Source of the DNA: Epilithonimonas arachidiradicis
GTDB lineage: Bacteria > Bacteroidota > Bacteroidia > Flavobacteriales > Weeksellaceae
Assembly (NCBI RefSeq): GCF_003610695.1
Contig: NZ_RAQH01000002.1
Location: 186,001-250,000 of the forward strand
DNA: 64,000 nt
Reading direction: 5' to 3'
The position numbers and the translations under genes are program-made. Under the pieces are notes generated by a model. That model was not told the DNA's origin. It did no database searches and saw nothing but the letters and a program-made list of their open reading frames with translations. How positions within the stretch are numbered: position 1 is the first letter of the stretch; the number at the start of each line of letters is the position of its first letter. Shown in pieces: positions 16,303-47,643 of this stretch.

Positions 16303-16450
16303 GACTAAGTCGACTTCGTTAGGTTTGGGCGCCTTTATCCGCTCTCCGTTCCCGCTTTTTTCTGTCATTGCGAACAACATGAAACAATCTGTAGAAATTT
16401 TGTAAAGTCGCAATAACAGAAAAAGAGCTCCACTCAGGTCGGGGCGCAAG
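16303..16450 (+). repeat. nested hairpin repeat, copy 1
   Basis: The outer segment begins CTTCGTTAGGTTTGGGCGCC and ends GGTCGGGGCGC. In the middle a near-perfect hairpin (16354-16373 with 16408-16428) has GCTTTTTTCTGTCATTGCGA as its left arm. The stem begins with a T-run and ends with an A-run. Its internal sequence, GTCATTGCGAACAACATGAA, resembles the core of copy 2. It fills the gap between the transketolase terminator and the ACC deaminase-like gene. Confidence 0.65.
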
Positions 16451-17511: not shown

Positions 17512-17636
17512 AGAAACCCATAGCCCTGATAGTAGCGGCATCCTTTTTTGGCATTGCGGTGAAAAATTCTAAGGATTGCCTTCACTTTCGTTCGCAATGA
17601 CAAAAAAGATATAGCGGATAGCGGGATTAGCTCCTT
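17512..17636 (-). repeat. nested hairpin repeat, copy 2
   Basis: The central hairpin has arms 17543-17558 and 17593-17608 (CTTTTTTGGCATTGCG against its complement, one mismatch). The outer segments carry TAGCGGCATCC and, on the other side, ATAGCGGATAGCGGGATTAG. Read on the minus strand, the order (CCGCTATCCGCTATATC, T-run, cargo, A-run, GGATGCCGCT) agrees with the copy at 46121. It fills the gap before the glucosaminidase gene. Confidence 0.7.
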
Positions 17637-17670: not shown

Positions 17671-18735
17671 ATGAAAAAATTATTGGCGATTGGTTTTGTT
17701 TGTGTTTTAGGATTTGCAAAAACACAAACCTGGAAAACGGAAGACCAATATATCCAGAAATTCGCACCTTATGCGGTGGAAGAAATGGAGAAATACAAAA
17801 TCCCAGCGAGTATCACACTGGCTCAGGGACTTTTGGAAACCGGCGGCGGACAAAGCCGATTGGCGCTGGAAGGGAAAAATCATTTTGGGATCAAGTGTAA
17901 AGAAGAATGGACAGGGAAAACAATGAAACACACAGACGATGCCCCGAATGAATGTTTCCGTGTTTATGAAGACCCGAAACAGTCTTATGAAGATCATTCG
18001 ATTTTTCTGGCAACTCGAAAATATTACACCAAGTTGTTTGACCTAGACCCAAAAGATTACAGAGCTTGGGCTCACGGTCTAAAAAAAGCGGGATATGCAA
18101 CCAATCCTCGATATGCATACATCCTGATTGATAAAATCGAGCGATACAAATTGTATGAATTTGATAATACTACAAAGGATGAGGTTTATTATGCGATTTT
18201 GAAATTGTATCCCAACTTGAATAGTGATGCGGTTTTTATGGCGCAATTGAGTCAGGAAAAACAAAATGAAAAAGTTGCTCCGCCAACAGTGAAAGTAGAT
18301 TACACACAAGGTTCTTATGCGAAAAAGCAAGCGGAAGTTTCTGAAATTGTAGATGCAAAAACCAAGGCTAATCTTCTCAAGAATATCTTGGTGAAAAATC
18401 ATCCGAACAACAATCTGAAATTCTTTGTAATGCCAGTGGATGCTGATGCAGAAGATATTGCTAAAAAATTCTGGATTAGTGAAAAGCGCCTGTTGAAATA
18501 CAACGAATTGCAAAGCTCTAAGCTTCAGAAGAACGATATTATTTTCCTTGAAAGTAAAAGTTCATCCGGAAATATTGCTACTTACAAAGCTGGAATTGGC
18601 GAAACAATGCACGATATTGCTCAGAAATTCGGAATCAAACTGAAGAAACTGTACTCCAAAAACAGAATGGAGGCTGGCGAAGAGCCAAGAGCAGGACAAA
18701 TAATTTATTTGCAAAGTAAAAAACCTAGGTCTTAG
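17671..18735 (+). CDS. secreted N-acetylglucosaminidase (GH73-type) with LysM domains
   Basis: A 354-residue cell-wall hydrolase. After a signal peptide (MKKLLAIGFVCVLGFAKTQ) a glucosaminidase domain covers about residues 25-165, with ASITLAQGLLETGGGQS holding the probable catalytic glutamate and HFGIKCKEEW after it. The C-terminal ~110 residues contain two LysM-like repeats (FFVMPVDADAEDIAKKF and YKAGIGETMHDIAQKFGI), which bind peptidoglycan. It should cleave GlcNAc-MurNAc linkages in the periplasm. The frame begins at TTG 17665; ATG 17671 starts the signal peptide. Confidence 0.88.
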   Translation: MKKLLAIGFVCVLGFAKTQTWKTEDQYIQKFAPYAVEEMEKYKIPASITLAQGLLETGGGQSRLALEGKNHFGIKCKEEWTGKTMKHTDDAPNECFRVYEDPKQSYEDHSIFLATRKYYTKLFDLDPKDYRAWAHGLKKAGYATNPRYAYILIDKIERYKLYEFDNTTKDEVYYAILKLYPNLNSDAVFMAQLSQEKQNEKVAPPTVKVDYTQGSYAKKQAEVSEIVDAKTKANLLKNILVKNHPNNNLKFFVMPVDADAEDIAKKFWISEKRLLKYNELQSSKLQKNDIIFLESKSSSGNIATYKAGIGETMHDIAQKFGIKLKKLYSKNRMEAGEEPRAGQIIYLQSKKPRS

Positions 18736-42852: not shown

Positions 42853-42871
42853 GATTTACTTATTAATAAAA

Positions 42872-42910
42872 TAAAACAGCTGCGATTTTGTTCGCAGCTG
42901 TTTTATTTTT
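42872..42910. terminator. bidirectional terminator
   Basis: A 13-bp stem AAAACAGCTGCGA/TCGCAGCTGTTTT with a short loop between the convergent pyrG and SDR genes, flanked by A and T runs. Confidence 0.9.
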
Positions 42911-44298: not shown

Positions 44299-46086
44299 AT
44301 GCAACAGAATAACGGATTAGACAAAAATCAGCTGATTAGCTTCGCGGTTTTTTCTATGATTCTTATCGGTTTTATGTTCTATTTCCAGAACAGAAATGCA
44401 AAAGCTGAACAGGAACAACTCGCTGCGCAAGCCAAAAAAACTGAGCAGACTACAAAAGCAAAAGCTCAGGTTACTAATCTTAATGCGAATACAGTAACAC
44501 CGACTTCAGTTCAGAAAGTTAATCTTCAGAATGATGAATTGGCTTTGGAATTTTCCAGTGTTGGAGGACAATTAAGCTCTGTTAAACTGAATAAATTTCA
44601 GGCTTTTGGTGGAAAACCATTGTATCTTTTCAATAATAACAATTCCACCTATGGCTTCCAGTTTACGGATAAGTCCGGTAAAGTTTTCAATACAAAAGAT
44701 TTAGTTTTTGCACCACAAGTTTCCGGGAATTCTGTGACTTTGAGTTCAAAAATTGGAAATGCTGTTGTACAATTCGTTTATACACTTAAGCCAAAATATA
44801 CGTTAGATTTTCAGGTAAAAACACAAGGTTTAGCTAATATCGTTAATGATGGAAAAGCTAATTTTGTCTGGAATTACAATGTAAGAGGTGCAGAAAAAGG
44901 ACGTTCGCAGGAAGAGACTCACACCGAGTTTGCTTATGCGTTCAACAATTATAAAGACTACGATTACGATGCCCGTTCCGATATGGATGAGCCGGACGAA
45001 ACCCTGAATTGGATTGGTGTAAAGCAACAGTTTTTCGCAGCAGTTCTTGAAGCTAAAAATGGATTGACCAAATCAAAAGGTAATCAGGAAGCGATCCCAG
45101 AAGGGGAGTTTTTGAAGAAATTCAATTATGACGGACAGGTTAATTTGGCTGGCAATGAATTGAATCAGGATTTTACCTGGTATTTTATGCCACTAGATAT
45201 GGACTTGCTGAAGTCTTACGACAAAAACTTTGACGAGATTCTGCCGTTAGGCTGGTCTTTCATCGGCTCGCTGAACCGCCACGTATTTATGCCGATGTAC
45301 AATTTGTTATCGTCTTGGGGATTGGCAGCAGGCTGGGCGATTTTCTGGATGACCATTATCGTGAAACTGATTTTGTCTCCGGTAATGTTCAAACAGCACA
45401 AACTAAGTGCGATGATGAAGGTGATTCGTCCGGAAATTGATGAGGTGAATGCTAAATTCAAGGATGCGGACCCGATGAAAAAGCAACAGGAAACAATGGC
45501 GGTCTACCGGAAAGCCGGCGTGAATCAAATGGCAGGATGTTTACCGGCGTTGGTTCAGATTCCGTTGTTCTACGCACTTTTCCGTTTCTTCCCGAATATG
45601 TTAGACCTTAGAGGGAAAAGCTTCTGGTTCGTTCCGGATTTGACAGCTTATGACGATATCATCAGTTGGGGAACCAACATTCCGTTGCTGGGAAATCACC
45701 TGAGTGTATTTGCTTTGGCTTGTACCATTGTGATTTTGATTTACACGATTATGACTTCAGGAAACATTCAGCAGCCACAACAGGAAGGGATGCCGAATAT
45801 GAAAGTCTTGATGTACATCTTCCCAATCACGTTCTTGTTCTTCCTTAACAGTTCTGCATCAGGTTTATCTTGGTATTATTTTGTATCCAATGCGATTAAC
45901 ATCGTGATTATCTTGGTGATTAAATATTTCATCTTAGATGAGAAGAAAATCCACGCTCAGATCCAGGAAAACAAAAAGAAAGAACCGAAGAAAGAAGGAA
46001 CTTTCCAGAAACGGATGAGAGAGATGATGGAGAAAGCGCAAGAGCAACAGCGTTTACAGGAACAAGCTAGAAACAAAAAGAAATAA
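44299..46086 (+). CDS. yidC: membrane protein insertase YidC
   Basis: A 595-residue YidC/Oxa1 protein that inserts proteins into the inner membrane, alone or with Sec. An N-terminal helix (LISFAVFSMILIGFMFYFQNR) leads to a large periplasmic beta domain (about 75-330). The conserved five-helix insertase domain follows, including GWAIFWMTIIVKLILSPVM, QMAGCLPALVQIPLFYALF and SSASGLSWYYFVSNAINI. The basic, glutamine-rich C-terminal tail is typical of this group. A terminator follows. Confidence 0.96.
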   Translation: MQQNNGLDKNQLISFAVFSMILIGFMFYFQNRNAKAEQEQLAAQAKKTEQTTKAKAQVTNLNANTVTPTSVQKVNLQNDELALEFSSVGGQLSSVKLNKFQAFGGKPLYLFNNNNSTYGFQFTDKSGKVFNTKDLVFAPQVSGNSVTLSSKIGNAVVQFVYTLKPKYTLDFQVKTQGLANIVNDGKANFVWNYNVRGAEKGRSQEETHTEFAYAFNNYKDYDYDARSDMDEPDETLNWIGVKQQFFAAVLEAKNGLTKSKGNQEAIPEGEFLKKFNYDGQVNLAGNELNQDFTWYFMPLDMDLLKSYDKNFDEILPLGWSFIGSLNRHVFMPMYNLLSSWGLAAGWAIFWMTIIVKLILSPVMFKQHKLSAMMKVIRPEIDEVNAKFKDADPMKKQQETMAVYRKAGVNQMAGCLPALVQIPLFYALFRFFPNMLDLRGKSFWFVPDLTAYDDIISWGTNIPLLGNHLSVFALACTIVILIYTIMTSGNIQQPQQEGMPNMKVLMYIFPITFLFFLNSSASGLSWYYFVSNAINIVIILVIKYFILDEKKIHAQIQENKKKEPKKEGTFQKRMREMMEKAQEQQRLQEQARNKKK

Positions 46087-46092
46087 ACATCT

Positions 46093-46119
46093 AAAGCGGT
46101 AATTTTTACCGCTTTTTTT
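46093..46119 (+). terminator. yidC terminator
   Basis: Stem AAAGCGGTAA/TTACCGCTTT with a 3-nt loop and seven T residues. Confidence 0.88.
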
Positions 46120-46120
46120 A

Positions 46121-46262
46121 TTGGGGCGTATCCCTTTGTAAGATTGGCTTTTTGCAAAAAGCCAATCTTACAAGCGGGCCGTGCTTTCCGCTATATCTTT
46201 TTCTGCCAAGCTTTTGCCAATCCAGAAAAAGGATGCCGCTGCAATCACTTACGCGCTGACGC
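46121..46262 (+). repeat. nested hairpin repeat, copy 4, with 38-bp perfect palindrome
   Basis: Outer GGGGCGTATCCC and ACTTACGCGCTGACGCC enclose two hairpins. The left one (46136-46173) is a perfect 38-bp palindrome, half-site TTGTAAGATTGGCTTTTTG, with no unpaired loop. The right one has stem TCTTTTTCTG/CAGAAAAAGGA and cargo GCCAAGCTTTTGCCAATC. CGCTATATCTTTTT and AAAAAGGATGCCGCT agree with copy 2. It lies in the 370-bp gene-free gap after yidC. Confidence 0.75.
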
Positions 46263-46456: not shown

Positions 46457-47116
46457 TTGAACTTAGAATCTACCTACGAATATCTCCAACAATTCCTAAC
46501 TGCGGAACGTTTCCAAAAAATCGAACATTACTCCAAAGAAAGTTCAGATTTTGTTCTGCCGGTAATGGAAGACATTTACCAGTTCAGAAATGCGGCTGCC
46601 ATTGTTCGTTCTGTGGAAGCTTGTGGATTTCATAAAGTGGTGGCGATGGAAAAAGAGAATTTCTTTGAACCGAATCTAAAAGTCACAAAAGGCGCTGATA
46701 CTTGGGTTGAGGTGGAGAAAATGCCAAGAACAATAGAATCTCTTCAGAACATCAAAAACCGAGGTTATAAGATAGTCGCTGTTTCAGCCGAAAACAATGC
46801 GAAAATGCTCCCAGATTATAAAATCGAAGAACCTTTGGCTTTAGTTTTCGGAACAGAGTGGGAGGGAACAACGGATGAATTATTGGACTTTGCTGATGAA
46901 ACTTTAGCAATTCCAATGTTTGGATTTACAAAAAGTTTCAACGTGTCTGTTGCGGCCGCCATTTGTATGTATGAACTTAAACAAAAATTGCTAAAATCTG
47001 ATATCGATTATAAATTGTCCGAAGAAAAATTGCTACAGATGAAAATCCGCTGGGCAAAAAACTCGATTCCAAGTGGTGATATGATTTTGGAAAAGTATTT
47101 GAGAGAGAATCAATAA
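46457..47116 (+). CDS. TrmH-family (SpoU) RNA methyltransferase
   Basis: A 219-residue SPOUT methyltransferase. The AdoMet knot motifs are visible: YQFRNAAAIVRSVEACGFH (motif 1, Asn and Arg), ALVFGTEWEGTTDELLDFAD (motif 2, with the glutamate) and IPMFGFTKSFNVSVAAAICMYEL (motif 3). It should methylate a tRNA or rRNA ribose; the exact site is not read from sequence. No ATG precedes the conserved domain in frame, so translation most likely starts at TTG 46457. Confidence 0.85.
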   Translation: MNLESTYEYLQQFLTAERFQKIEHYSKESSDFVLPVMEDIYQFRNAAAIVRSVEACGFHKVVAMEKENFFEPNLKVTKGADTWVEVEKMPRTIESLQNIKNRGYKIVAVSAENNAKMLPDYKIEEPLALVFGTEWEGTTDELLDFADETLAIPMFGFTKSFNVSVAAAICMYELKQKLLKSDIDYKLSEEKLLQMKIRWAKNSIPSGDMILEKYLRENQ

Positions 47117-47162
47117 TCTTAGTATATTTGATTATAAAATACTCATTATGACAATTTATAAT
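47099..47162 (+). promoter_or_regulatory. toxin-antitoxin promoter and operator
   Basis: TTG (47099-47101) and TATATTTG (47123-47130), 21 bp apart, form a Bacteroidetes-type promoter. A perfect inverted repeat ATTATAAA (47131-47138) and TTTATAAT (47155-47162) spans the antitoxin start codon and is a plausible site for autoregulation. Confidence 0.6.
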
Positions 47163-47363
47163 GTTTCTATACCGGATAATAAAGATTCTTTTTTTCGAGA
47201 ATTCTTAGAGCTTATTGGAGCAAAGTACGAGAAAAAGCAAGATACTTTTGAGCTGTCTGACGAGCAAAAGAAAATATTGGATAACCAAGATGATTTTGCG
47301 TTGTCGGATTATGAAGATAATGACAGTTTTGTAGCAGAGTTAAAGAAAGAATATGGCATTTAA
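47148..47363 (+). CDS. antitoxin of type II toxin-antitoxin pair
   Basis: A 71-residue acidic protein (many D and E; ELSDEQKKILDNQDDFALSD in the middle, then LKKEYGI) upstream of and overlapping a RelE/ParE-type toxin gene by 11 bases. This size, order and overlap are typical of small Bacteroidetes antitoxins (DUF2683-like). The N-terminal part should bind DNA or form a dimer and the C-terminal part wrap the toxin; that is family knowledge rather than seen. Confidence 0.8.
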   Translation: MTIYNVSIPDNKDSFFREFLELIGAKYEKKQDTFELSDEQKKILDNQDDFALSDYEDNDSFVAELKKEYGI

Positions 47364-47643
47364 AGTCATTGTTTCTCCTGTTGCAAAATCGAATGTAAGA
47401 GAAGCTGCGTCTTATTACAAAAGAGAAGTATCTAACAAAGTAGCTCAAAAATTTGTTGAAGATTATGGGCAAACCATTCAAAGAATAAGACAAAATCCAT
47501 ATTTTCAAATCTATTATAAAGATTTTAGAGGATTGACGATGCGTAAATTTCCCTATATTGTTTTCTATCAAGTTTCCGTAGATACAATCTTAGTAAAAGC
47601 AGTTTTCAATGGACTTCAGGATACTAAGAAAAGACCAAAATAA
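47353..47643 (+). CDS. RelE/ParE-superfamily toxin
   Basis: A 96-residue basic protein with the ParE/RelE fold pattern: an N-terminal strand (FKVIVSPVAKSNVREAASYY), two helices with FVEDYGQTIQRIRQNPYFQI, and the closing strands GLTMRKFPYIVFYQV and TILVKAVFNGLQDTKKRP. Family members inhibit gyrase or cleave mRNA; the motif FPYIVFYQV is closer to plasmid-stabilisation ParE-like proteins. Its target is not known. It is coupled to the antitoxin by overlap. Confidence 0.82.
   Translation: MAFKVIVSPVAKSNVREAASYYKREVSNKVAQKFVEDYGQTIQRIRQNPYFQIYYKDFRGLTMRKFPYIVFYQVSVDTILVKAVFNGLQDTKKRPK

Follow-up and report, generated by a model that had tools for sequence, protein, structure and literature searches.

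The window, by which is meant the whole 64,000-nucleotide stretch of Epilithonimonas arachidiradicis DNA analysed here, carries yidC on its plus strand (44299-46086, confirmed in Pfam by 60KD_IMP and YidC_periplas). This gene is followed by an intrinsic terminator with a T-run (46093-46119, plus strand) and then by a gene for a SpoU-type RNA methylase (46457-47116, plus strand). Between the two genes, beginning 16 bp past the T-run, lies a perfect palindrome at 46136-46173. An inverted-repeat search of the window gives two arms of 19 nt each (46136-46154 and 46155-46173), 100% complementary and with a spacer of 0. An earlier note on this DNA, made from its letters, had described a perfect 38-bp palindrome with no loop, lying within a repeat and 16 bp past the yidC terminator. 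The palindrome is indeed exact, its letters are those quoted, and its placement is correct. The term "loop-less" is valid for the DNA only, because the folded RNA has a loop: it is predicted to form a stem of 16-17 bp closed by 4 nt (-21.7 kcal/mol, z -8.2). Matches to microRNA and other Rfam families over the palindrome score under their cut-offs, and were set aside as chance matches to a hairpin. Further along the window is a small overlapping gene pair on the plus strand (47148-47363 and 47353-47643). Its second member matches ParE_toxin (PF05016); the other, which matches nothing in Pfam, may be the antitoxin.

By arithmetic, such a palindrome is expected by chance about 1e-6 times per 64 kb at the base composition of the window, which is negligible. 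A census covering the window together with 400 kb from contig C1 (464,000 bases in all) found six spacer-free perfect palindromes with arms of at least 11, and that at 46136-46173 is the longest. Flavo-1 hairpins account for two of the six, this one and another at positions 18222-18247 of locus L126. Among the others, L123 and L127 are terminator-like in appearance, and L129 lies in another A+T-rich stretch; inspection covered these five, and the sixth is L113. Inverted repeats with arms of 14-19 bp and short spacers exist elsewhere in the 464 kb (L118, for example, has 19 bp arms and a 1-nt spacer), and these are often terminator-like by eye. One perfect 18-bp inverted repeat in the window (42868-42909, with a 6-nt spacer and T/A-rich ends) is probably a bidirectional terminator.

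The palindrome is almost certainly the first hairpin of a full-length Flavo-1 element that occupies the gap between yidC and the methylase gene. The core of the element (46173-46261, minus strand) matches the Rfam family RF01705 over the entire model (positions 1-76 of 76) with 48.8 bits, above the gathering cut-off of 42 (E 1.7e-7). The whole extended element, here called "class A" (a label of our own), runs from 46124 to 46254 and was parsed alongside 33 relatives via common anchors. Its assignment to the minus strand comes from the Rfam match and from the G-U pattern discussed below. Read on the plus strand, it extends from GGGCGTATCCC to ...CACTTACGC.

Comparison of the class A copies resolves the element into conserved blocks that alternate with hairpins. 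A conserved block at the left, GGGCGTATCCC (46124-46134), is followed by hairpin 1, which is the palindrome (46136-46173). A second conserved block, GCGGGCCGTGCTTTCCGCTATATC (46174-46197), separates this from hairpin 2, whose sequence is likewise variable (TTTTTCTG...CAGAAAAA, 46198-46230). A conserved end block, GGATGCCGCTGCAATCACTTACGC (46231-46254), completes the element. The arrangement over 46124-46254 can be written as GGGCGTRTCCC-(hairpin 1)-GCGGGYCG...ATATC-(hairpin 2)-GGATGCCGCTGCAATCACTTACGC.

In its core sequence and fold, which score above a curated cut-off, in its many copies per genome, and in its occurrence in Bacteroidota, the element resembles the Flavo-1 RNA. It differs in that hairpin 1 and the GGGCGT block lie beyond the end of the model. 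The match to the 76-position model stops at 46173, the edge of the palindrome. Thus, the palindrome extends the element and is no part of RF01705 as the family is now defined. The earlier note had counted the surrounding element as copy 4 of a nested repeat; a loose check of this with Rfam gives two Flavo-1 copies in the window above the cut-off and one below it. The other copies are at 17518-17632 (plus strand, 61.7 bits) and at 16331-16450 (minus strand, a weak match of 30.8 bits, under the cut-off). The second hairpins of both contain a repeat of the TTGCG...CGCAA type (GTCATTGCGA...), which is a repeat nested in a repeat.

Flavo-1 matches were found in all 23 genomes of the genus and in none of 14 control genomes; 90 were scored in the genome studied here. 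The pattern defined by the two flanking blocks matches 10 elements in 8 of the 23 genus genomes and 17 elements in 15 of 296 family genomes. Two of the 13 matches in a scan of genome contigs (L103 and L109) look like chance and were left out. The genus is probably Epilithonimonas, for loci named Epilithonimonas lactis, caeni and hungarica have 100% identity over 1.6-3.1 kb with loci of its members G003, G015 and G009. Class A elements are present in Sphingobacterium too (L111, L112). The insert between GGGCGTRTCCC and GCGGGYCG is different in most of the elements found, and in most it forms an inverted repeat whose closing ends are TTG...CAA.

The literature has treated Flavo-1 briefly. Table 1 of PMC2864571 (2010) gives it as a probable RNA that probably does not regulate in cis, and the available part of a review (PMC9029176) lists it with no function given. 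A study of F. psychrophilum (PMC9723704) reports that several matches coincide with transcribed 5' regions, sense or antisense, and that many are outside transcribed regions. A variable extra hairpin is not described in the available text of papers on Flavo-1 or on palindromic repeats in Chryseobacterium and the Flavobacteriaceae. The parts of the element are ordinary, and the evolution of its stems is what is interesting.

The sequence of the palindrome is private. Allowing 3 mismatches, it was found in one of the 296 family genomes, its own, with no match elsewhere in the 296, and the orthologous site lacks it in each of the 22 other genus genomes examined. The search for further copies that the earlier note had proposed therefore returns this site only, and the recent origin that the note had entertained is plausible on these counts. 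The region 3' of yidC is variable across the genus. In the 23 genomes, a class A element lies there in three (the present genome, G004 and G015), a class B element (one without hairpin 1 and with TAGGAGC...GGGGCTA ends) in eight, and neither in twelve. In three genomes (G008, G012, G019) the next gene after yidC was not found, and about 330 bases were covered in each. In G004 and G015, a different repeat (CGTGCTGAAGTTTATCCTGAGC...) takes the place of the stretch that holds hairpin 1, while G005, G006 and G017 have a different near-perfect palindrome 3' of yidC, of the CCTTTCAGAGTTTCAAACTCTGAAAGG type. Another dispersed-looking repeat (TGTCASGCTGAGCGGAGTCGAAGCC) lies 3' of yidC at L022, L028 and L138 (in G011, G013 and G002). 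Its presence at the same place means that the gap 3' of yidC gathers several repeat families in the genus.

If sequence is so poorly kept, it is useful to ask what is. Here, 34 distinct class A elements were parsed by anchors from the relatives' loci and the window. Matches to the 3' block that failed the anchors (L009, L010, L073, L082, L084, L087, L090, L093 and L098) are outside the 34. One of these, L093, looks like a chance match within a gene; another, L073, also bears a TTTGCATTTTTGCC...GGCAAAAAATGCAA hairpin. Hairpin 1 opens with TTG or TTA and closes with CAA or TAA in 24 of the 34 parsed copies. At least 6 of its outer 8 positions are paired in 23 copies and 5 in two more. Outer pairing is weak or absent in nine, where no more than 4 of the 8 positions pair or the slot is too short; one of these, L091, would pair if shifted by one base.

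Exchanging arms between copies shows that the two arms of each hairpin belong together. With near-identical slots removed, 69.4% of the outer positions of hairpin 1 are paired versus 44.7% after swapping (n = 27); for hairpin 2 the figures are 82.3% and 53.9% (n = 29). None of 2000 shuffles reached the observed value for either hairpin. Each of the outer positions 4-9 displays two or more Watson-Crick pair types.

The most direct comparison is offered by five genomes that share an intergenic site (L011, L012, L015, L016 and L019), its orthology judged from the common upstream flank. The body of the element at this site is 90-100% identical. Hairpin 1 has 38-54% identity in seven of the ten pairs and 68, 72 and 97% in the others, the last being the closest pair; between random pairs of copies it averages 50%. 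Three other sites have preserved hairpin 1 better (79-96% identity), so its turnover is not equally fast everywhere. Perfect palindromes without a spacer fill other Flavo-1 slots as well, among them one of 26 bp in the same genome (L126) and one of 30 bp (L096). In class A stem-loops, then, the sequence is nearly free to vary and the arms must pair. That hairpin 1 has a slot, that its two arms change jointly, and that hairpins differ wholesale at an orthologous site are all direct observations.

The pairing might be maintained in RNA or in DNA. Isolated mismatches in the stems that appear as A-C on the plus strand are G-U on the minus, or Flavo-1, strand, and these G-U cases outnumber A-C there by 21 to 2 when every distinct hairpin is counted. 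After related hairpins are clustered the ratio is 12 to 2 (two-sided binomial, about 0.01). Such a bias suggests that selection acts on a minus-strand RNA or on single-stranded DNA, where G-T is tolerated too. In 32 of 33 copies, hairpin 1 has a lower predicted folding energy when read from the minus strand. The strand difference in energy is largely base composition, of course, since shuffle-corrected scores are much closer (means of -2.55 and -3.33), and it is not the main evidence. A promoter scan gave one weak consensus match and no convincing promoter on the minus strand. The placement of Flavo-1 in F. psychrophilum (PMC9723704) speaks against a simple RNA gene.

Several other readings must be weighed against these data. 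One accepts the palindrome as hairpin 1 of the repeat, and holds that the symmetry matters in DNA. Here, the element would be a small mobile repeat akin to a MITE or REP, with hairpins that a transposase or recombinase recognizes as single-stranded DNA, and RNA would be irrelevant. The many dispersed copies of Flavo-1, the differing occupancy of the yidC site, and an orientation in F. psychrophilum that is independent of transcripts (PMC9723704) all fit such an element; the bias toward G-U on one strand argues against it, with the reservation about G-T just made. No match to a Y1 (IS200-like, RAYT) transposase (PF01797) was found in the present genome, and 5 of the 14 controls have one. This reading is a serious candidate, though it falls short of an even chance. 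Its particular form as a REP or REPIN system with a RAYT shares the short, dispersed, extragenic and palindromic character of these elements, and was rejected because the genome lacks a Y1_Tnp match. The architecture of REP and REPIN elements also differs from that of Flavo-1.

The remaining readings take the palindrome on its own. As a transcription terminator or barrier it would offer a strong hairpin 16 bp past a terminator, but the stem leads into no T-tract in either direction (the junctions are ACAA-GCGGG on plus and ACAA-AGGGA on minus), yidC already has its own terminator, and hairpins occupy the same slot at unrelated places. An intrinsic terminator was rejected on the missing T-tract, the palindrome not being among the sites of the terminator scan, and a barrier role in general seems quite improbable. 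Perfect dyad symmetry near the end of a gene might also indicate an operator or insulator bound by a protein, as the earlier note had suggested. Such a site would hardly be confined to one of 296 genomes, absent from the orthologous position in relatives, and represented by other hairpins in its slot elsewhere. With the sequence unconserved in every relative searched, and symmetry alone kept, the suggestion finds no support; the protein site was rejected, and an operator is very improbable. A draft assembly in 15 contigs could, of course, contain an inverted chimera made in assembly or library construction. The palindrome exactly fills the expected slot and has the TTG...CAA ends, however, such slots hold other perfect palindromes, and 38 bp is well within a single sequencing read. 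As flanks, slot and gene order agree with the relatives, an artefact seems very improbable.

The best explanation overall, and probably the correct one, takes the palindrome as the recently perfected hairpin 1 of an extended Flavo-1 element, maintained for its pairing over its sequence. Within this, selection would act on how a product of the minus strand folds, with RNA the somewhat favored candidate over single-stranded DNA. The perfect, spacer-free form would come from a recent event, most simply a template switch in replication that used one arm to copy the other; this stands at about even chances. Two papers offer precedents. Template switching makes quasipalindromes in E. coli more perfect (PMC7202029), and has been proposed to create, and to maintain or mend, the stems of RNA (PMC8794818). 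The likeness to the E. coli case is that imperfect inverted repeats there become perfect in a single event. The difference is that the event here would be read from its product alone, with no ancestor-descendant pair found. At the yidC site the switch is not traceable, because no ancestral hairpin is preserved: in G004 and G015, the closest orthologous copies, the slot is taken by another repeat.

The persistence of the palindrome had seemed to call for an explanation on the ground that perfect palindromes of this length are unstable in bacteria with SbcCD. That premise fails here. A single profile search of the present genome for each subunit gave no match to SbcD (TIGR00619, matched by 13 of 14 controls) and none to SbcC (TIGR00618, matched by all 14). 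The inviability of palindromes concerns lengths well over 100 bp. The palindrome has the spacer-free perfect symmetry of the long palindromes that SbcCD cuts, but it has just 38 bp and lies in a genome in which the enzyme is undetected. Without detectable SbcCD, nothing obvious in the genome would remove it.

A broader and distinctly tentative proposal, one we regard as rather unlikely as it stands, is that class A stem-loops are rewritten whole, both arms at once and faster than the body of the element, giving each copy its private hairpin. Frequent switching of the replication template at the hairpin, where SbcCD is lacking, would be the driver, and selection on a minus-strand RNA would keep only those switches that preserve pairing. 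If this is true, the Flavo-1 family preserves in nature a history of hairpins replaced in single steps. The data as they stand extend a known and unexplained Rfam family past its present model, and bear on the old question of how RNA stems change sequence and yet keep pairing. With many copies, some of them orthologous, that have nearly wholly different stems on a body at least 90% identical, one can measure how fast arms are replaced and what part the loss of SbcCD plays.
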